A DNA stretch of 31,028 nucleotides from a virus. A program made the translations under genes and the position numbers. The notes under the pieces are model-generated. The model saw only the letters and a list, made by a program, of their open reading frames with translations, ran no database searches and was not told where the DNA came from. Where the stretch lies: positions 1-31,028 of IMG/VR virus record IMGVR_UViG_3300035180_001597; one strand, given 5' to 3'. Each line of letters opens with the position of its first letter. Position 1 is the first letter of the stretch. Of the stretch, positions 2,654 through 31,028 are shown one piece after another.

Positions 2654-3687
2654 CACACGACCCCAAAGCGCTGCTGTGCCCACTGGGTGAGCAAGCCCAT
2701 GTCAGTGCTGCCCATCGTGTTGGTCGTGACCACCACAGCACCTAGGTCCCCGATCCACGCATCCTGGCCCGGGGTAGCACCCGAGTATCCACAGCCGATC
2801 GTGTACCAGCCAGAGAGACCCGTATAGAAATTGGCCGTCTGAGGTGCACCCTGTTGCACGTTGCCCTGGTACGCCGTGGCTGTGTTCGTGTCGCTAAATG
2901 TCCAGCCTACTAGATGGGGGTTGCCGTCGTTAAATCCAGAGCCAGCGTCCACCTCAATGGCGTAGCCGTACAGGGAGATCTGAGAGCCGCTACCACCGGG
3001 CCCGGGACCATACCCGGCACTGTCGCCGAACAAGCTCTGAGGGACCTCGTAGGAGCCGGTAGCTACGCTCTTGTTATTGGTCCACTTGCCCACCCAAAAG
3101 AACGAACAAGCGGTAGTGAAATAGTGTAGTCCAGCCGTGTTATACAGAGCGGAAAGCCCGTCAAATCTCAGAGACGGGAGGGACCCGAATTGGCTAGCCA
3201 CTACCGTCACATTTCCCGCAAACGGCGCAAACGCAAAAGCGCTAGAGGATTGGTCCAGCCAATTGCTAACGGGGCTGCCTGTAACCCCCTTGCCTGAGTC
3301 CAAGTAGGCCTGCACACCCGCTATCTGAGCTGGGCTCCAATAATTAAACGGCTGGGTGCCACTAGTCCCCCCAGGTGTAGTGACGCTGGCCGTCACAGCC
3401 CCAGCGGCATGAGCTGGGAGAATAAAGGTAACGGTGGTGGATGTAGTGGAGGACGGGCTAACAGCGTTGCCACCGATCGTGACGGCGGTTGCACTCAGGA
3501 GGTTAGTACCAGTGCCCACGATGGCCTGACCTCCACCCGAGATGTCACCCAAAGAAAAGCTGAGACTCGTGAGGGTGGGGGGCAGGAGGCCAGCAAAGTG
3601 AGGCCCACCCTTGACGGTGATCGTCTTAGCGGCTGGCTTACCGATCTTGTGCGTCAGAGCCGCTGGCTTGCGGATGATGATCGTCAC
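2653..3687 (-). CDS. Putative tail fibre/spike receptor-binding protein (IPT/TIG plus lectin-like domain)
   Basis: This 344-aa protein starts with GTG at 3687, overlapping the stop of the endonuclease VII gene by four bases. Residues about 36-115 form an immunoglobulin-like IPT/TIG domain (GTGTNLLSATAVTIGG, then alternating Thr/Val strands). From about residue 117 the protein looks like a concanavalin A/LamG-type lectin fold: YLDSGKGV, SNWLDQSS and LPSLRFDG are the usual opening signatures of such phage domains. The sequence is rich in Gly, Ser, Thr and aromatic residues, as expected for surface-exposed beta structure. It lies at the end of the tail genes, where adsorption proteins are usually encoded. 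The likely role is binding a host surface glycan. There is no enzymatic motif. Confidence 0.7.
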   Translation of the reverse strand: MTIIIRKPAALTHKIGKPAAKTITVKGGPHFAGLLPPTLTSLSFSLGDISGGGQAIVGTGTNLLSATAVTIGGNAVSPSSTTSTTVTFILPAHAAGAVTASVTTPGGTSGTQPFNYWSPAQIAGVQAYLDSGKGVTGSPVSNWLDQSSSAFAFAPFAGNVTVVASQFGSLPSLRFDGLSALYNTAGLHYFTTACSFFWVGKWTNNKSVATGSYEVPQSLFGDSAGYGPGPGGSGSQISLYGYAIEVDAGSGFNDGNPHLVGWTFSDTNTATAYQGNVQQGAPQTANFYTGLSGWYTIGCGYSGATPGQDAWIGDLGAVVVTTNTMGSTDMGLLTQWAQQRFGVV

Positions 3688-4052
3688 GTGGAGGCCCGCT
3701 CCAGGTAGTCAGCGGCTGCCCTCGCGGTAGCAGGGTTGTCCTTGAGGGAGCCGATCGCTGTGTTGCATCGGCTGCACAAAAGCCCCCTGATCGCCTTGGT
3801 TGCATGACAGTGGTCTACCGCCAGGTTCTTAACTTTGCCGTAGCGTCTCGCGGTTTCAGGTTGGCGGCAAATGGCACATACGCCGTTTTGTTCTACCAGC
3901 ATGCGCTGATAGTCCTCAGGACTAAGGCCAAACTTTTTGGCGATCCGATACCGATGCTCCCTCTGGGGATCATCTCCAGGGAGGCCTAGCGCCTTACGCT
4001 TGTTGCGGTAGTTTTGCCTGGCCCTTCTCCTGGCCTCAGTGTCAGGGGTCAT
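3684..4052 (-). CDS. Endonuclease VII-like recombination (Holliday-junction) nuclease
   Basis: This 122-aa protein has the classic phage endonuclease VII zinc-binding and His-Me finger pattern. Cys59-x2-Cys62 is followed by LAVDHCH (residues 77-83; Asp80, His81, His83) and then RGLLCSRCN with Cys93-x2-Cys96 and Asn97. Family members resolve branched DNA before or during packaging. The N-terminal 40 residues are strongly basic and probably contact DNA. It is coupled on both sides: ATGA with the gene upstream and GTGA with the receptor-binding protein downstream. Sitting between tail genes is an unusual but known position for HNH/EndoVII genes. Catalytic residues look complete. Confidence 0.88.
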   Translation of the reverse strand: MTPDTEARRRARQNYRNKRKALGLPGDDPQREHRYRIAKKFGLSPEDYQRMLVEQNGVCAICRQPETARRYGKVKNLAVDHCHATKAIRGLLCSRCNTAIGSLKDNPATARAAADYLERAST

Positions 4053-4395: not shown

Positions 4396-4851
4396 TCAGG
4401 CCCCTGTGGGGTTGGACTGGAAGATCTCAATCTGCCCAGCGCCTGTAGAGACAAAGCCAAGGAAGAGATCCACACCCGGCTGTAAAAGGTAACGCACCTC
4501 CTGGCCTGCCAGGACGCGGTAACAAGTGCCAGCCGCAACCGTGTAGGCGTTAGATGTCAGGGTGCCTGACGTAGCCAGTACGGGGACGTTACCGCCTGTC
4601 ACGCTGGCTAGCGTGCTGCCAAAAACAATGCCGCAGTCTGTAGTGACGGCCTTGATCGTAATGTACTGGCCTACAGCGCCCTGGGTTCCCTGGCTGGTAG
4701 CAGCGCTGGAGATGTTAGCCACCTGGGTACCAAGGCTGGCCAAGCTCAGGGCAGCCGCTACCGCTGACGTAGCCAGTACGGCCAATGAGCCAACACCCGA
4801 TCCGGCTCTAGGTGGGCTGACGTTTTGAAACTTACGGGACGGATCATACAT
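4396..4851 (-). CDS. Hypothetical small virion protein
   Basis: This 151-aa protein is rich in Ala, Ser, Thr and Gly. An N-terminal Pro/Arg segment is followed by a low-complexity helix (about residues 20-50, LAVLATSAVAAALSLASLG) and a beta-rich C-terminal half ending RYLLQPGVDLFLGF and QIEIFQSNPTGA. The start ATG at 4851 has a GAGG Shine-Dalgarno nine bases upstream. It stands between the largest internal protein gene and the Ig-like protein gene, after a 45-base gap. The layout suits a small capsid- or fibre-associated trimer protein. I do not recognise a named family. Confidence 0.6.
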   Translation of the reverse strand: MYDPSRKFQNVSPPRAGSGVGSLAVLATSAVAAALSLASLGTQVANISSAATSQGTQGAVGQYITIKAVTTDCGIVFGSTLASVTGGNVPVLATSGTLTSNAYTVAAGTCYRVLAGQEVRYLLQPGVDLFLGFVSTGAGQIEIFQSNPTGA

Positions 4852-4896
4852 AGTGAGGACCTCGGTTAGGAGGGATCACAAGAGCTTTAAGGACGG

Positions 4897-7800
4897 CTAG
4901 TCATCGTGATCTGTATCGTCTAGGCCCGTGAGGCGCTCATTCGATATGAACTCAAAATCAGATTCCTTGGGGGTCTTGGCCTTATGGCCCTTACCCTTGG
5001 GTTGCTTGCCCACGGGTAGCCCGTGCTCAGTGGGGTAATTGGCTTGCATCGCCTGGATGAACATGGGCTCAAGTGATGGCCCTGCCAGGGCCGGATCCCC
5101 TAGAAACTGAGCCAGGGCCATCCGCTTCCCGGCTGGGAGGGCCGTCTTTTGAGCCGCTAGCTTGTTGGCCAGTTCGTCACACATTTGGGCGTAAAGCTCA
5201 GGGTACATGCTCCGCATCGCTGAGACCTGGTCAGGCGTTATGGAGCCGTCCTCCAGGCTGCCCAGGATGCTGATAGGATCATGGGCAATATCTACGGCCC
5301 GGGTAAACTTGGCCCGCTCACTGTCCGACCAATCCACCTTTTCCAGGTGAGGGGTCAGGCTAGGCTTTGCCTCACGCTGGGGTATCAGGTGAGCCAGGTA
5401 TGTAGTTACACGGATAGCGGCCCTCGTGAATGCCCCAGCGGTATTGGGTGCATGGGCAGCTATGGGGCTGATGGCAGACTGTACCGCTGCAACGTGGTCC
5501 CCTGACCCGGTAACAGCTTTTGCTACTGCAAGGGCCCTGGCCTCATGGTCACCCCCCATGAGCTTTTCACGGGTAGTAGCGGCTGCACGGCCCTCCCCAA
5601 AGATGTTGTCGACACCTCTGGTGATCTGACGGTCAACCCTTGCGGCTGCCTGCTCTACTGCCCCGTAGGAGGCGAGCTTATCAGCCAATACAGCCGCTGT
5701 AGCGTTTCCGCGATCCTTGATTATGTGGTGCGCTACTCCAGCCGCGATACCCAGGAGCCCGTGACCAGTGGCAGCGCCAATCATTGCAGCGGCATAGTCA
5801 GTAGGGGAGGCCTTCCGGTTGGAGATCTTGCGCTCTAGTGCGTCCTCAGCGGCATCAGATGCAACCTTGAGTTTCCGATACGCTAGCTTGGCCTCCTTGT
5901 ACTCAGCACCACCCCCAGGGACGTGGTCCATAGCCCGCTCTAGTTCGTCTTCTATCGCACGACGTGCACCCTTGAGCCCCTCGGTAAGCTCATTTACGGG
6001 GCTCATGGGATTTGTGTTCCATCGGATCGCATCATCGATCCGGCCCCTCAGCTCCTGAGCCTGACGGAACCCTAGACGGCCCTCCTTAGCCGCTAGTGCC
6101 AAATCTGCCTGGAGACCATTGAGGCGACTGATTGCCCCTTGGTTCATGCTGGGTAGCTTCTCCAGCCGGGCCATGGGCTCCTCCATGCCCTTTAGGATCC
6201 GGTGCAGCTCTGGCCCCGCAATGCCTCCACGATCGGCATTGTCCAGTAGCGTCCCCAAGAACTTGCCAGCCTGGTCTTTCGCCTCCAGGATCCTGGGTGC
6301 AGCTGCCTCCAGGTTATCGCCACCTCGTACTAGTTTCAGGTCAATCAGGAATTGACCGATCGCGCTAGAGCCTCCAGGGATCCTCTCTGCTGATTTCGTG
6401 AAAGCCTTACGTGGATCAAGCGCCCTAAAGGCCTGCTCTCCAGCGATCTTCCTGAGGCCTATGGAGGCCTCCCCTGCAATCTTGCGGGTCAGCACACCAC
6501 CGGATGACAGGGCACCTCCAGTGATGCCACCCAGCAGCATCCCGTGTCCTACAGCCGCAAGCATCTTTTCGCCGTTGGTCTCATGACCACCTAGGCGATC
6601 CTCATTCAGCTGGTCTATACTGCTGTAGATACCACCCTCCACGGCACCCCTGGCACCACCGGCCAGGCCCTTTTGGGCCATCTTGCCCAGGGTGGTCTTA
6701 GCCTCAGGGCCAAGCATCTTGAGGACACCTGACTCTACGCCCTCTCCCAGATGCCCAACGATGTTGGCGGGTATTGCATTAGCCCAACCCGGTGCACCCT
6801 TAGCGACACCAGCCGCTTTACCTACCCCAGTGTTACCTAGGATCTCCTGGCCCAATGCCTCACCCAAGGAGGGCATACGCGGGGTTACTTGCCTGGCCTG
6901 GTTACCCAGGCCAGGCATCTTGACCGTAGACTCTCCTACGCCGGGTGCAGCTCCTGGAGGTGCAGCACCACCAACGGGCTCAGGCCCGATACCCGGTAGG
7001 GTGGTGGGCTCAGCTGGGAGCTGTGGACGCATCCCAGGCTTGGTGGCCTCCAGGGGCTCCATGGGCGCTACTGGCTCTGTGACCCTCGGGGGTGGCTCTC
7101 CCAGGCCAGACATCGTGGGCTCACCGGGTGACATGTCCACAGGCCCACCGGGAAGATTGGGCCGCTCACCTATGCCGGGATTGGTGCCACGCTCCAGCCC
7201 CTCAGCAGCCTCTTGGGCTGCCTGGGCACGTCTGGCCGATCCTTGCGGATTGGTCGCTTCTAGGGCTTGCTGGGCTGCCTGGGCACGACGTGCGGACCCC
7301 TGAGGGTTGGTTGCCTCCAGGGCCTCTTGAGCGCCTTTGCTGGCTGCCTCATCCACGGTACCGGCAGACCCCTTACCGGCCTTGCCGAGCATCTCCTCTA
7401 GCCACCGTGCTCCCTTGATTTCCTCGGGGGTGGTGCTCTGAGAAGCGGTAGCTAGCGTGTCAGCGATCTTGGTAAGCCGTCCCCCCCCGAACGCCTCCCC
7501 GGCTGCATCCACGACAGGGGCCGCAACCTTGGCCAGCCCTGGAGCTGCCTCCATGACCTTCGGTGCAAGGCTCTCAGCCATCGCACCGGCTCTAGCGGCT
7601 GTGGGCGCTCCAGCTGCACCACCGGTCATGAGCGATGGAATGATCGTCCCTTCGATCTCTCCACCCAGGGACATGTAGGGGTGCTCATTCTTGAGTCGCT
7701 CTAGATACTGGCGTGCATGCTCTCCACCCAGCGCTATCGCTAGTTCGTCCGTCTGGCCCATGGAGGCCCCACGGGCGACACCCAGGAACCCAGCGCCCTT

Positions 7801-20939: not shown

Positions 20940-21504
20940 CAGGATCCTCGGTCATGTGAGTAAAGAAGACGTACGGGTTGAATTGCCAGCTAGCTGGCTC
21001 AGGGAAGGACGCTAAGAAATGTCCAGTCTCGGGGTCCTGGGGATCGCCTTTTTGCTTGGACCGAAACCAGGTAGTGTCACAGACCTTGTGAGTCATGATC
21101 GCTGGGGCCTTGCCAAACGGCTCCAGGAGAGCCGTGGCCATGCCTAGCCGTCTCATGTCCCTACGGACGTAGACGTAATGGACGATCCGGGTGGGCTCCT
21201 CATAGGCAGCCCACCCAACAAGGGCCGTGGGCGCGCCCAGAACGTGGGCGATCCTCAGCGTGGATCGCCTCAGCGCAATCTCAATCAGGCGCCTGTGCTC
21301 TCGCCTGTAGGTGCTGGCACCTGAGTAGCGCCCACCCATAGGAGCGTCCCGGTTGGCTTCAAGCCATGAGCTCACTACGAAACCGTAGTCAGCTGGAGTG
21401 CCCTCGCGAATTGCCCAAAGGGGCCTTTCGGATAGCTCTTTCGCTGTGGGGGTTGGCACACCAAGGGGGCGGTATAGGTGCTTTAGTAATCCTCTTCCCA
21501 CCAT
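20926..21504 (-). CDS. GNAT-like N-acetyltransferase fold protein
   Basis: This 192-aa protein carries a recognisable GNAT acetyl-CoA-binding motif A, YVYVRRDMRRLGMATALL (about residues 110-127). It is preceded by the strand LVGWAAYE and by WAIREGTPADYGFV near residue 30, which resembles the N-terminal GNAT strand. The R-x-x-G-x-A loop has Gly121 and Ala123. The substrate cannot be told from sequence. It lies between the large terminase (22-base overlap) and portal-side genes, so it is expressed with packaging functions. A GNAT-like gene at this place recurs in some podoviruses, where it may modify a virion or host protein or DNA; this is inference. Confidence 0.65.
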   Translation of the reverse strand: MVGRGLLKHLYRPLGVPTPTAKELSERPLWAIREGTPADYGFVVSSWLEANRDAPMGGRYSGASTYRREHRRLIEIALRRSTLRIAHVLGAPTALVGWAAYEEPTRIVHYVYVRRDMRRLGMATALLEPFGKAPAIMTHKVCDTTWFRSKQKGDPQDPETGHFLASFPEPASWQFNPYVFFTHMTEDPDAQD

Positions 21505-22961
21505 TCTTGGGGGTTCTGGCGCCTCTGTTCATCTTCTCGGTGCCAGGCTTCCGTCTGAGCGTGGATGCGCTCAGCCTCAGTCATGGGTGGGGGTGGGGGC
21601 TCAGCGTGGTAGTTGAAACACGATTGCCACCCGTACAAGGTGGCATCCAAGAGGTGGTCCTCTGAGCCGCTGGCTACGTCGTCTGATTCATCGTTCCATC
21701 GGACTGAGGCCCACTCCTTGAGAAGCGGCTCAGCCATGATGGGATCTACCTTGATTAGCCCACGGGCCAGGTAGCCTTTCATGAGCCGCATCATGGGCCC
21801 CTTGTACCCAGGGCGCTTATCGGCCGCCTCAATGGGGAGCTGGAAGCGTCTCCTCATTTCCTCCTGGTAGGTCTTACCCATGCCTCCCTGGTCACCCACC
21901 ATGGAGGAGAAGCGATAGCGCTTGTCCAGATCCTTTACGACCTGGGCAGCCTGGTCTGTGAGTAGTTCGGCCTTTTTGAGCGCCTCCACTACGTAGACGG
22001 TGGGATCATCGGCCTTGATACCGAGAACACTAAAGGCGCTTGCGTGCGTATAGCCGTAGTCCACTCCCAGGTGATATGAGACGAACGGGCGCTCATTTCG
22101 GGAGGGCTCATAGAGGTTGATCTTTCGGTCCCACTTGAAGATCTGATCCCCACCGTCGTCTAGCCACTCTCCATCACCCAACTGTCTACGGGTGGTTTCG
22201 TCCAAGTGGCTGAGAGACTCCCTGAGGGATGTGGCATTGATCGAAAGGTTGTCCTCAATGATGCTGGGGACGTAAACCCGCTTGGGGGACGCGCTCATAA
22301 GGAAACGCTCTTTCACCCACTTGGCCCCTGGCCCTCCAGGGTTCGCGGTTGCCCTCATCCGCAAGGGGATGTCTGATTTGGCGTCCTGGCTCTGCCGGGA
22401 GAACAGGTACTGATACGTATATTCGTCTTTGAAGTGGCAGATCTCATCAAAGGCAATGAACTGGTATGAGCCCCCCTGGAACTTGTAGATATCTAGGCGC
22501 TCATTGTCGAGGCCGGCTAGCTGGAGCCGTGCCCCAGAGGGAAAGGACCATGTCTTGTGCTGCTCGCTCCACTGAGCCGCTGTGCTGCCTAGCCACTCAT
22601 GGAGCTTGGGGATCAGAGCCTCACTGGAGTTTCGTAGATCGCTCAGCGTCTTACGGAAGATGATCGCGTTATAGCCCGGCCGGTCTACATACTTGAGGGC
22701 ACTAGCCAGGAGGGCGATCGTCTTACCTCCACGGGTTGCACCACCGTAGAGAGCCTCACGGGCCTGGAGGTCTACAAACTCTTGCTGACGTGGGTACAGG
22801 TCGTAGGGGCAGAACTGGATAGCCCTTGCGGCTCTAGCGTCCTCATTCTCAATCTCAGCCAGCTTGGCTAGGAGCACCTCCCGGGACTGCCCTGCTTTCA
22901 GGTCAGCGTTATACGGGACTGGCCGGGGGGCTTTCTTCGGTCGCTGAGGTGGGGACGGCAC
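21483..22961 (-). CDS. terL: Terminase large subunit (DNA-packaging ATPase/nuclease)
   Basis: This 492-aa motor packages DNA into the prohead. The ATPase domain shows Walker A GGATRGGKT (residues 73-81), Walker B FIAFDE (168-173, with catalytic Glu173) and the coupling motif ATANPGG (204-210). The RNase H-like nuclease domain has Asp301 in GVDYGYTH, Asp357 in MVGDQGG and Asp436/Asp439 in EDHLLDA. Length and motifs are complete. The start is GTG at 22961 with no clear Shine-Dalgarno. A strong terminator lies directly upstream, so it must have its own promoter or depend on read-through. The small subunit is not adjacent; a cassette of about 1.8 kb separates them. Confidence 0.95.
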   Translation of the reverse strand: MPSPPQRPKKAPRPVPYNADLKAGQSREVLLAKLAEIENEDARAARAIQFCPYDLYPRQQEFVDLQAREALYGGATRGGKTIALLASALKYVDRPGYNAIIFRKTLSDLRNSSEALIPKLHEWLGSTAAQWSEQHKTWSFPSGARLQLAGLDNERLDIYKFQGGSYQFIAFDEICHFKDEYTYQYLFSRQSQDAKSDIPLRMRATANPGGPGAKWVKERFLMSASPKRVYVPSIIEDNLSINATSLRESLSHLDETTRRQLGDGEWLDDGGDQIFKWDRKINLYEPSRNERPFVSYHLGVDYGYTHASAFSVLGIKADDPTVYVVEALKKAELLTDQAAQVVKDLDKRYRFSSMVGDQGGMGKTYQEEMRRRFQLPIEAADKRPGYKGPMMRLMKGYLARGLIKVDPIMAEPLLKEWASVRWNDESDDVASGSEDHLLDATLYGWQSCFNYHAEPPPPPMTEAERIHAQTEAWHREDEQRRQNPQEWWEEDY

Positions 22962-22979
22962 AGCACTGGGGGCGCAATA

Positions 22980-23020
22980 AAGAAAAACCCCCCTAGGAAA
23001 ATGCCTTTCCTAGGGGGTTA
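22980..23020 (-). terminator. Rho-independent terminator between the 67-aa gene and terL
   Basis: CCCCCTAGGAAA (22989-23000) pairs perfectly with TTTCCTAGGGGG (23006-23017) around a five-base loop. In the minus direction the stem is followed by TTTTTCTTTATT. It would stop transcripts of the small Cys/His gene before they enter terL. Confidence 0.85.
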
Positions 23021-23042
23021 GTGCCAGCTCTTTGGCTGTAGC

Positions 23043-23246
23043 TCAGTGCGGCTCAATGATGCTGGGCTCATCCTGCTGAGCGTCTACATCATCCTTGGTA
23101 GGCAAGTGATATACAGCCTTGTCGTATTCCCCGTAGTAGTGCGGGCCAGGATGGTCATGAGGTCCCACACATCTGGGGCCTTGCTCCCTGTCCGTGGAGG
23201 GGTTGTGGCCGCAAGCCTGCTCTAGGGTCGTCACATCATTGGACAT
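23043..23246 (-). CDS. Small Cys/His-rich protein (possible zinc binder)
   Basis: This is a 67-aa protein. The ATG at 23246 has an AGGAG Shine-Dalgarno eight bases upstream; this start is preferred over an open frame reaching much further upstream through the opposite-strand gene. Cys and His are clustered: ACGHNPS, then RCVGPHDHPGPHYYG. The C-x(4)-HDH-x-GPH arrangement is common in short phage proteins that may bind zinc. The C-terminus is acidic. It is flanked by a terminator downstream and a divergent gene upstream, so it is a single-gene transcript. Function unknown. Confidence 0.65.
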   Translation of the reverse strand: MSNDVTTLEQACGHNPSTDREQGPRCVGPHDHPGPHYYGEYDKAVYHLPTKDDVDAQQDEPSIIEPH

Positions 23247-23402
23247 GGGGGCATCTCCTGGAAGTAGAGCCCAGGCCCCAGACTCTACTGGGGCACTGCC
23301 TGATCGGGCTGGGCACCCCTGGAGATTTATAGGTACTTTACATGGGGGGTTGACGGGGGGCCTCAGGGGTGATGGTCTCGGGGCCCGACGATGGAGGTAA
23401 CG
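23247..23402. promoter_or_regulatory. Divergent promoter region of the accessory cassette
   Basis: This 156-base gap separates the minus 67-aa gene from the plus DNA-binding gene. AGTAGAG (23263-23269) and CTCTACT (23283-23289) form a 7-bp inverted repeat in the leader of the minus gene. TATAAA on the minus strand (around 23325-23330) is a fair -10, but its -35 is poor. TTGACG on the plus strand (23347-23352) is a fair -35 with a poor -10. Both promoters are therefore only tentative. Confidence 0.35.
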
Positions 23403-23840
23403 ATGGCAGCGAAGAAGAAGGCAGCGAAGAAGACCACTGAGGCACCCAAGGCAGCACCGAAACCGGGGACCTTGCCGGGCATCACCAAGAGCCAGTTTAT
23501 TAGGGACCACAGCCACCTGAGCCCAGCTGAGACCGTGGAGGCAGCTGCTAAGCAGGGGCTGACCATCACACCCGGTTTCGTGCATTCGGTCCGGTATGAC
23601 CAGAAGAAGAAAGCGGGTCAGGCCCCCGGCAAGCCTGGCAGGAAGCCCAAGAGCCTGGGGGCCACGGCTGCCAGCCTTCCTATCGTGAAGCTTGACCACC
23701 CGGACAAGGGGAGCCTGGGATCGGAACGGCTCAAGGCCACCCATGAGCAAGCCATGTGGGACGCTGTCCGGGACCTGGGGATCATCGCTGCACAGGACCT
23801 GATGCAACGGGCCGTGGATAAGCTGAGGAGGATCCCCTAG
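23403..23840 (+). CDS. Lys/Ala-rich DNA-binding protein of a type common in Myxococcota
   Basis: This is a 145-aa protein. The ATG at 23403 is chosen because GGAGG stands five bases before it; an earlier ATG at 23391 would place that Shine-Dalgarno inside the gene. The N-terminus is a histone-tail-like Lys/Ala segment (MAAKKKAAKKTTEAPKAAPK). The centre (about residues 27-65: SQFIRDHSHLSPAETVEAAA, GLTITPGFVHSVRYDQKKK) resembles a small winged-helix-like unit abundant in myxobacterial genomes with the form F-V-R-x(n)-A-x-x-x-G-I-x-L-T-x-x-Y-V-x-x-V-R. The C-terminal helix (WDAVRDLGIIAAQDLMQRAV) is usual in those relatives. It runs against the surrounding genes and has its own terminator, so it is probably a host-derived accessory gene, perhaps a regulator or nucleoid protein. 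Confidence 0.7.
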   Translation: MAAKKKAAKKTTEAPKAAPKPGTLPGITKSQFIRDHSHLSPAETVEAAAKQGLTITPGFVHSVRYDQKKKAGQAPGKPGRKPKSLGATAASLPIVKLDHPDKGSLGSERLKATHEQAMWDAVRDLGIIAAQDLMQRAVDKLRRIP

Positions 23841-23903
23841 CCAGCCAGCCAGAGTCACGCACGGGTCCTAGACGAGTGCGTGCCCAGCCAGCGGCTGTGG
23901 CGC

Positions 23904-23949
23904 AAGAGAAAGGCCCTCCCACCGTCAGGTGAGGGGGCCTTTCTCTTTT
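23904..23949. terminator. Bidirectional terminator between convergent genes
   Basis: AAGAGAAAGGCCC (23904-23916) pairs perfectly with GGGCCTTTCTCTT (23935-23947), a 13-bp stem, with T runs on both outgoing strands. It lies between the plus DNA-binding gene (stop 23840) and the minus serine recombinase gene (stop 23965), and can serve both. Confidence 0.9.
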
Positions 23950-23964
23950 GGGGTCTGGGGGGCT

Positions 23965-24660
23965 CTAGGCTGCCCTGTGGAGCATCCGGCCCACCTGGAC
24001 CGGAGAGAAGGGACGGCCCACCCTGGAGAGCCTTCCACGGGCTGCCAGCTCCTCACCCACAGCCCGCTGGCTGAGGCCATCGGCCCGAAGGGCCAGGGCA
24101 AGAGCGATGGTCTCTTGCTCCTCAGGGACCGGGGCCAGGCCCAGGCCCTCCGTACGGTACCCGTACGGGGCATAGCCCCCGGTCTTCTCTCCACGGGCCC
24201 GCTTGGCTTGGAGGGCTGCCTTAGTCCGGGCTGCAATCATGGAACGCTCATACTCTGCCATACCGCTCAGGATCGTCCGCATCAGGGCATCGGTGGCCGT
24301 GTCCCCGTTACCGGCGCCGTCAGCGCTGACCAGGGCAGCACCCAGACGGGTGACAGCCCGGTCAATCGCAATGGCGATCCCAGCGTCACGGGCTACCCGG
24401 TCCCGCTTGGCTACCAGGAGCTTGCCAGCCTTGAGGGTCTGGAGCCCTGCCAGGGCACCTAGGAGCCCCGTACGCGCATCAATGGGGGCAGCACCACTAA
24501 CGCCCCTATCGATGTACAGGGCAGCCAGCTGGAGGCCCTGGGAGGCCGCGTAAGCGGCAAGGGCCTGGGCCTGAGCCTCAAGGCCTAGAGCCTGGTCTTC
24601 CGTGGAGACCCTGAGGTAGCCGATTGCCAGGAGAGCATCTGTCTTGGGTGTGCGAGCCAT
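23965..24660 (-). CDS. Small serine recombinase (resolvase/invertase-type)
   Basis: This 231-aa protein contains the catalytic serine domain: YLRVSTEDQ with Ser19, DRGVSGA near residue 48, AKRDRVARD near 84, and the E-helix MAEYERSMIAARTKAALQAK. It is followed by the connector GGYAPYGYR and a short C-terminal helix-turn-helix (DGLSQRAVGEELAARG) ending VGRMLHRAA. There is no zinc ribbon or coiled coil, so it differs in class from the large integrase at 506-2143. Candidate jobs are resolution, inversion, or mobility of the cassette around it. ATG 24660 has AGGT just upstream. GC content (about 66%) is higher than in the neighbouring phage genes, suggesting recent acquisition. Confidence 0.88.
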   Translation of the reverse strand: MARTPKTDALLAIGYLRVSTEDQALGLEAQAQALAAYAASQGLQLAALYIDRGVSGAAPIDARTGLLGALAGLQTLKAGKLLVAKRDRVARDAGIAIAIDRAVTRLGAALVSADGAGNGDTATDALMRTILSGMAEYERSMIAARTKAALQAKRARGEKTGGYAPYGYRTEGLGLAPVPEEQETIALALALRADGLSQRAVGEELAARGRLSRVGRPFSPVQVGRMLHRAA

Positions 24661-24695
24661 GACCTACCTATGAGGCCCAGAGCCCCTATAGTCAA

Positions 24696-24715
24696 TACAC
24701 TTCGGTCGAAGTGTA
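24696..24715. promoter_or_regulatory. 20-bp perfect palindrome upstream of the small recombinase
   Basis: TACACTTCGGTCGAAGTGTA is a perfect 9-2-9 inverted repeat, about 36 bases upstream of the recombinase start. A -10-like TATAGG follows five bases downstream on the minus strand, so the palindrome would overlap the promoter spacer and -35. It is a good operator candidate, or a recombinase binding/crossover site, since such sites are palindromic with a 2-bp core. Confidence 0.6.
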
Positions 24716-24738
24716 AGTGATAGTTATTGCTCGGTGCG

Positions 24739-25239
24739 TCAATCCTCGGGGTCTGGCACGTCAGTCTCCCCAGCTTCCCCCTCACCTGTGGACAACTGAG
24801 GGGGCTCAGCCTCAGCCAGGAGGGCTAGTATCTCCTCCTTGCGTCTGGCCCGGTCGTCTGACGTCAGGGCGTGGACGTCTACCTGCTGGTAGACTTGTTT
24901 TGGCGCATCTAGGCCCAAAAGGGCCGATCTACGCTTCATTACGGCCAAAACCTCATCAATACCTATCAGATTGCCGTCTTTCGCCGCTTCCAGGGCCGCT
25001 ATTGCCTTGCGCTGGAGCATGGAAAGCGTGGCCAGCTCAATCTGTAGAATTTCTGCGACGGGCTCCGTGACGGCCAGTCTACGGGCTTCCCTGACAGCCT
25101 TGTAAGCTCCACTCTCTGAGCTGTAACCAAGCTCCTGGGCAATATCCCCATAGGAGTAGCCTTTTGCCCTCAGCTCAAAGGCTTTTGCGCGCTTCTTGGC
25201 CAGTTCCCTCACCAGCACTGGGTTATCTTGGGGGTTCAT
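24739..25239 (-). CDS. terS: Terminase small subunit (DNA-recognition HTH protein)
   Basis: This 166-aa protein has an N-terminal basic helix and helix-turn-helix (AKKRAKAFELRAKGYSYGDI, then AQELGYSSESGAYKAVREA, about residues 9-53). A long helical oligomerisation segment follows (ILQIELATLSMLQRKAIAAL), with the phrase MKRRSALLGLDAPKQV (about 108-123) that is very common in small terminase subunits. The C-terminus is acidic and disordered. It would recognise phage DNA and load the large subunit. In most phages it is adjacent to terL; here 1.8 kb of accessory genes intervene. Its own promoter lies upstream in the control region. Confidence 0.78.
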   Translation of the reverse strand: MNPQDNPVLVRELAKKRAKAFELRAKGYSYGDIAQELGYSSESGAYKAVREARRLAVTEPVAEILQIELATLSMLQRKAIAALEAAKDGNLIGIDEVLAVMKRRSALLGLDAPKQVYQQVDVHALTSDDRARRKEEILALLAEAEPPQLSTGEGEAGETDVPDPED

Positions 25240-30537: not shown

Positions 30538-30687
30538 CCCTCGATCCTTCTGGATGTAGATGAGGCTGCCCAGCTCCTGGGCATCACTCCCCAGGCGCTG
30601 CACAAGCGGGTGCAGCGTCACCAGATCCCCGGAGTTGTACGTACACGACCCCGGTGTAACGTAAGTTCTCGCGGTGCCCCGTCGTGA
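30508..30687 (+). pseudogene. Excisionase/MerR-type HTH gene truncated by the IS66-family element
   Basis: The native part (to 30660) encodes SILLDVDEAAQLLGITPQAL followed by HKRVQRHQIPGVV. This is the typical opening of small excisionase-type winged helix-turn-helix proteins: a tyrosine- or serine-integrase partner, or a regulator. The frame then enters the insertion element at 30661 and stops at 30687, adding nine element-derived residues. The wing and everything after it are lost. The start is probably TTG 30508; no ATG or GTG is in frame. In the circular phage the gene would lie next to the integrase, which suits a recombination directionality factor. Confidence 0.6.
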
Positions 30688-31028
30688 CGTGATCTCGACG
30701 AGCGGGTAGCCACGCGTGGATGGAGCACGGAGAAGTCACGCTGGCGTCACTGCGCCGAGAGCTGCGGTCGCGGGTCGCCGGTCGGGGCCGGCGGTACGAG
30801 CCGGGGTTGAAGGCGCGGTTGATCGCGTACGCGGTGAGGCGCCGCCGCGAGGGCATCGCGGTGCAGGCGATCGCCCGCGAGCTCGGCGTGGTGTTCGAGA
30901 GCGTGCGTCGGTGGTGCGTGGCGACTGCGCCTGCGCCCGCGATGCGTGAGGTGCAGATTTCTCCGGAGCCTTCGTCGCGCACGTTCACGGCTGTTTCGCC
31001 GAGCGGCGTCCGCGTGGAGGGGCTGACG
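30661..31028 (+). mobile_element. IS66-family insertion sequence, left part (runs off the window)
   Basis: The element begins GTAAGTTCTCGCGGTGCCCC; IS66-family terminal repeats characteristically start GTAA. It interrupts the HTH gene and raises GC content sharply. The first accessory gene starts 60 bases in. The second accessory gene, the transposase, the other terminal repeat and the expected 8-bp target duplication would lie outside the window. Confidence 0.75.
30720..31028 (+). CDS. tnpA: IS66 accessory protein TnpA-like, partial (3' end beyond window)
   Basis: ATG 30720 opens a frame of 103 codons without a stop to the window edge. The protein reads MEHGEVTLASLRRELRSR, then a helix-turn-helix (RRREGIAVQAIARELGVVFE followed by SVRRWC, residues about 44-69), and a beta segment ending VSPSGVRVEGLT. 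The last phrase (SPxGxRVEGL) is usual near the end of IS66 TnpA proteins from high-GC Proteobacteria and Myxococcota. In this family the small DNA-binding protein assists the DDE transposase encoded downstream. A second, broken copy is at 56-207. Confidence 0.75.
   Translation, partial: MEHGEVTLASLRRELRSRVAGRGRRYEPGLKARLIAYAVRRRREGIAVQAIARELGVVFESVRRWCVATAPAPAMREVQISPEPSSRTFTAVSPSGVRVEGLT

Follow-up and report, generated by a model that had tools for sequence, protein, structure and literature searches.

What does a small serine recombinase do between the genes for the two terminase subunits of a phage, and can the block of genes in which it lies move? We addressed this question in the 31,028 bases of IMG/VR virus record IMGVR_UViG_3300035180_001597, the whole of which was analysed and is called the window below. 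The original prediction held that the genes for the small (TerS) and large (TerL) terminase subunits normally adjoin, and that in the window they are split by a self-contained, moron-type cassette that may be mobile or invertible through its own recombinase.

The block and its prophage context

Both ends of the record are host-like, with a GC content of 72%, and each carries a copy of a host-like, high-GC HTH gene (1-207 and 30665-30884). At the left end, beside host-like DNA, a large serine integrase is encoded, and the structural genes in the window include a portal (phrog_156) and a major head protein (phrog_14242). The window has the appearance of an integrated prophage that carries structural genes of its own, and its protein relatives point to a host among the Myxococcota. 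The two HTH copies are near-identical, differing by one 13-bp gap and one mismatch, and the large serine integrase alone is an insufficient explanation for host paralogues on both sides of the prophage. An HNH-endonuclease-like ORF, named solely from a sequence motif, lies beside the tail-end genes (3684-4052).

All the features on which the original prediction was built, namely TerL, the TerS-like gene, the three genes of the block, the terminators and the palindrome, were recovered where it had placed them. The features that matter here are as follows.

506-2143: large serine integrase, 545 aa
20926-21504, minus strand: GNAT-like gene, following TerL
21483-22961, minus strand: TerL (PF03237; Terminase_6N, E 3.8e-10; phrog_979, 4e-46)
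22989-23017, minus strand: intrinsic terminator on the TerL side, a perfect 12-bp stem followed by GTTTTTCTTT, at the top of the terminator scan list
23043-23246, minus strand: Cys/His ORF, 67 aa, with C..C..HDHPGPH; an orphan, divergent to the basic-protein gene
23391-23840, plus strand: basic protein, 149 aa, belonging to a Myxococcota family and putatively DNA-binding as judged by composition only
23904-23947: bidirectional terminator-like hairpin with 20-nt arms (90% complementary), a 4-nt loop and T-rich tails on both strands
23965-24660, minus strand: small serine recombinase, 231 aa (Resolvase PF00239, E 1e-31)
24696-24715: 20-bp palindrome, TACACTTCG-GT-CGAAGTGTA, 36 bp upstream of the start codon of the recombinase gene
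24739-25239, minus strand: TerS candidate, 166 aa, with an HTH (phrog_645, E 7e-25; synteny)

The TerS call is based on synteny, since phrog_645 is labelled 'Rnase E' and yet behaves, by its position, as a terminase small subunit: in Arthrobacter phage PrincessTrina a gene named 'Rnase E' stands immediately before terL and overlaps it. An HMM search also ties the window candidate to the TerS candidates of related phages. With this assignment the gap between TerS and TerL in the window is 1777 bp.

The interval between TerS and TerL is a variable hotspot

Scans of viral and genome contigs with the single TerL sequence gave no matches, and TerL relatives were recovered by using a two-sequence TerL alignment. 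The 80 TerL loci fetched in this way included about 33 closer relatives, most of which have portal and capsid genes in common where the contig extends far enough. By iterated HMM searches and gene lists we could place TerS in about 15 relatives, whose TerL proteins are 35-41% identical. TerS and TerL adjoin in four or five of these (L193, L194/L195, which represent one phage, L197, L234 and tentatively L214, where the call is only probable because its TerS has no PHROG match), while in 10 they lie 0.3-2.7 kb apart, usually with a GNAT acetyltransferase-like gene intervening. The individual distances are 0.3 kb in L205, 0.7 kb in L206 and L198, 0.9 kb in L207, 1.4 kb in L213 and L199, 1.6 kb in L219, 1.7 kb in L210, 2.6 kb in L217 and 2.7 kb in L202/L175. 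Thus, the assumption that the two genes normally adjoin holds for the first set and fails for the second, and a split is not unusual in this family, since the subunits are separated in most relatives with a placeable TerS.

The GNAT-like gene itself moves within the family. It lies between TerS and TerL in many members, among them L198, L199, L202, L206, L207, L210, L217 and L219, and between TerL and the portal gene in others; in the window it follows TerL, as it does in L195, L197, L205 and L234, and in L208 it is on the opposite strand. In L219 a gene for a GroES-like co-chaperonin (6442-6864) is also found between TerS and TerL.

The small recombinase was absent from all of the approximately 33 related TerL contigs, many of which are fragments. 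Rather than the same genes in every relative, the corresponding interval at the examined TerL loci holds other genes or nothing. An empty site at the DNA level was not found among the relatives, because they are too diverged. We conclude that the TerS-TerL interval is a variable hotspot for accessory genes, which the window fills in its own way.

The block consists of two parts divided by hairpins

Two hairpins divide the block. The recombinase gene forms the part adjacent to TerS, and the basic-protein gene and the Cys/His ORF, a divergent pair, form the part adjacent to TerL, with the hairpin at 23904-23947 separating the recombinase gene from that of the basic protein. The probable start of the basic protein is at 23403 (145 aa), after GGAGG. 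Its homologues were found in 4 of the 379 Myxococcota genomes searched, and the conserved core of their alignment lies around F-I/V-R, G-I/L/M and Y/F-V..V/I-R; a single-sequence structure model, with a mean pLDDT of 66, was too poor for interpretation. The Cys/His ORF had no matches in Pfam, PHROGs, NCBIfam or the fetched loci. The GC content of the recombinase gene (67.1%) and of the basic-protein gene (62.0%) is shifted in the direction of the host-like flanks (72%), that of the Cys/His ORF is 57%, and most phage genes range from 55 to 61%, the exceptions being two genes at 61-62% and one short gene at 64%. Unlike its GC content, the GC3 of the recombinase gene (0.716) is inside the range of the phage. 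No sigma-70-type promoter scored above the scan threshold in the block, and no repeats flanking it were detected in 22900-24800.

A small serine recombinase with a putative site

The product of 23965-24660 is a member of the small serine resolvase/invertase class and not a large integrase. Its catalytic residues R17, S19, R88 and R91 are present, in columns that are invariant in a 36-sequence alignment, and the large domains that Bxb1-type integrases have at the C-terminus are missing from it. Foldseek matched its AlphaFold model (mean pLDDT 91.7) to serine integrases and to gamma-delta resolvase, and the C-terminal helices of the model (179-193, 198-207 and 220-230) form a region that is predicted to bind DNA. 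The closest relatives, at 44-54%, come mostly from Myxococcota assemblies and some from other bacterial assemblies. A function as the phage integrase is unlikely, since the large serine integrase encoded next to host-like DNA at the end of the prophage already provides for integration.

The palindrome upstream of the recombinase gene has perfect 9-bp arms around the asymmetric 2-bp centre GT. Its chance of occurring in the 78-bp intergenic spacer was about 2e-4 (43 of 200,000 shuffles), and a palindrome of such size is not rare across 31 kb. We rejected it as a terminator of terS, as it is not followed by a T-run and does not appear in the terminator scan list. No second copy exists in the window, even when 6 mismatches are allowed, and an exact search of other viral contigs returned four matches, with no recombinase recognisable in the vicinity of any of them. 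No accessory res subsite was clearly recognised near the palindrome; a second dyad, within the end of terS, is weak (10/12). Most likely, as far as the sequence can tell, the palindrome is the putative crossover or operator site of the recombinase itself.

Related recombinases were compared in the same respect by scoring the upstream regions of 78 recombinase clusters (60% identity, window excluded) against those of 608 control genes from the same loci. At a threshold of 10/12 pairs or more, 2-bp-centred dyads were present in 19 of the 78 clusters versus 28 of the 608 controls (p 8e-8), and at 11/12 or more in 8 versus 6 (p 3e-5), so such dyads are 5-10 times commoner upstream of the recombinase relatives than of control genes. 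This enrichment was restricted to even centres, with odd centres staying near background, and the regions downstream of the recombinase genes exhibited little of it. A clear dyad was not found in about three quarters of the relatives, and the arms in the window (9 bp) are shorter than the 12-bp arms of the relatives' dyads.

Three Myxococcota loci (L085, L091 and L097) have a common 26-bp site, GTACACACACCG-TC-CGG...GTGTAC, identical including its centre and embedded in otherwise different flanks, and each whole genome contains exactly one copy of it. In L097, a Myxococcales assembly, the recombinase relative (4469-5238) is frameshifted near its start and the 26-bp site is intact. Of nine plasmid relatives, four carry a 2-bp-centred dyad that reaches 10/12 or better. 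Searching two complete circular plasmids in full, both with toxin-antitoxin or ParA genes, we found window-like sites in a single copy adjoining the recombinase gene: CCTTCG-GT-CGAAG in pDCAR2 and GCTTCG-GG-CGAAGTGT in pMO1. Cleavage of the crossover site by Tn3-type resolvases leaves 2-nt overhangs (PMC9943657), a pattern that a 2-bp centre would serve.

A probable plasmid-type resolvase module and the alternatives

The block is real and accessory, and the best reading of the recombinase and dyad together is a plasmid-type resolvase module. We consider it fairly probable that the hotspot interval holds two units, such a resolvase/res module and a moron-like divergent pair. The unit next to TerS would consist of the recombinase gene and the putative site at 24696-24715 just upstream of it. 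A recombinase dimer would bind this dyad, pair the dyads of two phage genomes joined in a circular dimer or multimer, and cut at the 2-bp GT centre, whereby the joined genomes would be resolved; the dyad would probably also autoregulate the recombinase gene. One site per replicon suits multimer resolution, since two sites arise only when genome copies join. The second unit, made up of the basic Myxococcota-type protein and the Cys/His protein, divergently encoded between two terminators, would be a moron-like insert. We infer the binding, resolution and autoregulation by the recombinase, as well as the acquisition of the block from a host-like source.

A single site, however, also fits a plain operator, and the dyad could be an autoregulatory operator only, in which case the recombinase would act elsewhere or be carried as a passenger that currently does nothing for the phage. 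Consistent with this, the dyad stands immediately before a TTGAC-like hexamer ahead of the gene in the window, in L085 and in L092, besides being present only once in the window. We nevertheless regard the explanation as doubtful, since operators need no 2-bp centre, whereas the enrichment is restricted to even centres and three diverged genomes have preserved the centre along with the arms; the catalytic residues, too, are retained. Far less probable is a role of the recombinase in moving or inverting the block, which would then be a moron cassette with its own DNA-moving enzyme, as originally predicted. Its location inside an accessory block of raised GC would agree with such a role, but there is neither a second site within 6 mismatches nor any repeat flanking the block, and the sites of the relatives are single in the whole genomes of the three Myxococcota and in the two complete plasmids. 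The moron-type module of the original prediction thus stands as an accessory block, absent from the relatives' TerL loci that were examined and equipped with its own terminators, and is not borne out as a self-mobile one.

The position of the gene also suggested a role associated with packaging, in which the recombinase would resolve replicating phage DNA into a properly linked substrate for terminase and would for that reason recur beside terS and terL. Indeed, recombinase relatives lie upstream of TerL on the same strand at a distance of 13 bp in L028, about 0.2 kb in L089/L090 and 1.3-2.1 kb in L031, L161, L048 and L002, the TerL proteins of these loci belonging to different PHROG families, and the complete phage MW202879 has the order terS - resolvase - small genes - terL. 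Against this, the terL-adjacent cases are in the minority among about 115 relatives, the rest being mostly distant from TerL, on fragments or on plasmids, and MW202879 has no dyad, so we hold a packaging role to be unlikely. With only a minority so placed, a general rule that puts such recombinases beside terL is unsupported. We likewise see a small chance that tailed phages have repeatedly and independently acquired terminase-linked serine resolvases as accessories to packaging, with the resolvase and a single site next to terS tuning the topology of replicating DNA, by resolution of multimers, ahead of packaging. In the open-access literature searched, we found no paper on serine resolvases between terminase subunits, and we treat the terminase-linked recombinases elsewhere as a lead.

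In summary, a family of temperate phages, probably of myxobacteria, has a gene hotspot between terS and terL. Our results also provide a candidate site for small serine recombinases from phages and plasmids, a large group of which most members are uncharacterised; this site is a single upstream dyad with an asymmetric 2-bp centre. If the plasmid-type resolvase reading is true, this group would be a source of new site-specific resolvases with defined sites.

Comparison with known systems

The window recombinase resembles the plasmid and Tn3-type serine resolvases (gamma-delta, Tn3, Sin) in its catalytic domain and active-site residues, and its surroundings resemble their res systems in the putative 2-bp-centred dyad directly upstream and, as seen in complete plasmids, in the one site per replicon. 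It differs from them in having a C-terminal region similar to the beginning of the PF07508 recombinase domain and in being encoded within a phage packaging cluster, and no subsite II or III was recognised in the window. DNA invertases such as Hin and Gin share the catalytic fold and a 26-bp-type dyad with a 2-bp centre; however, they require two inverted sites and an enhancer, whereas the window has one site. In plasmid prophages such as phiCD38-2, D6 and those of B. cereus, small serine recombinases are viewed as resolvases or invertases (PMC8026635). Like these prophages, the window represents a temperate tailed phage carrying such an enzyme, but it also encodes a large serine integrase, is flanked by host-like DNA, appears integrated, and has its recombinase between terS and terL. 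Finally, the block shares with phage morons its accessory genes, variable interval, raised GC, bounding terminators and absence from the same place in relatives, while its recombinase gene, unlike typical morons, is on the late-gene strand.
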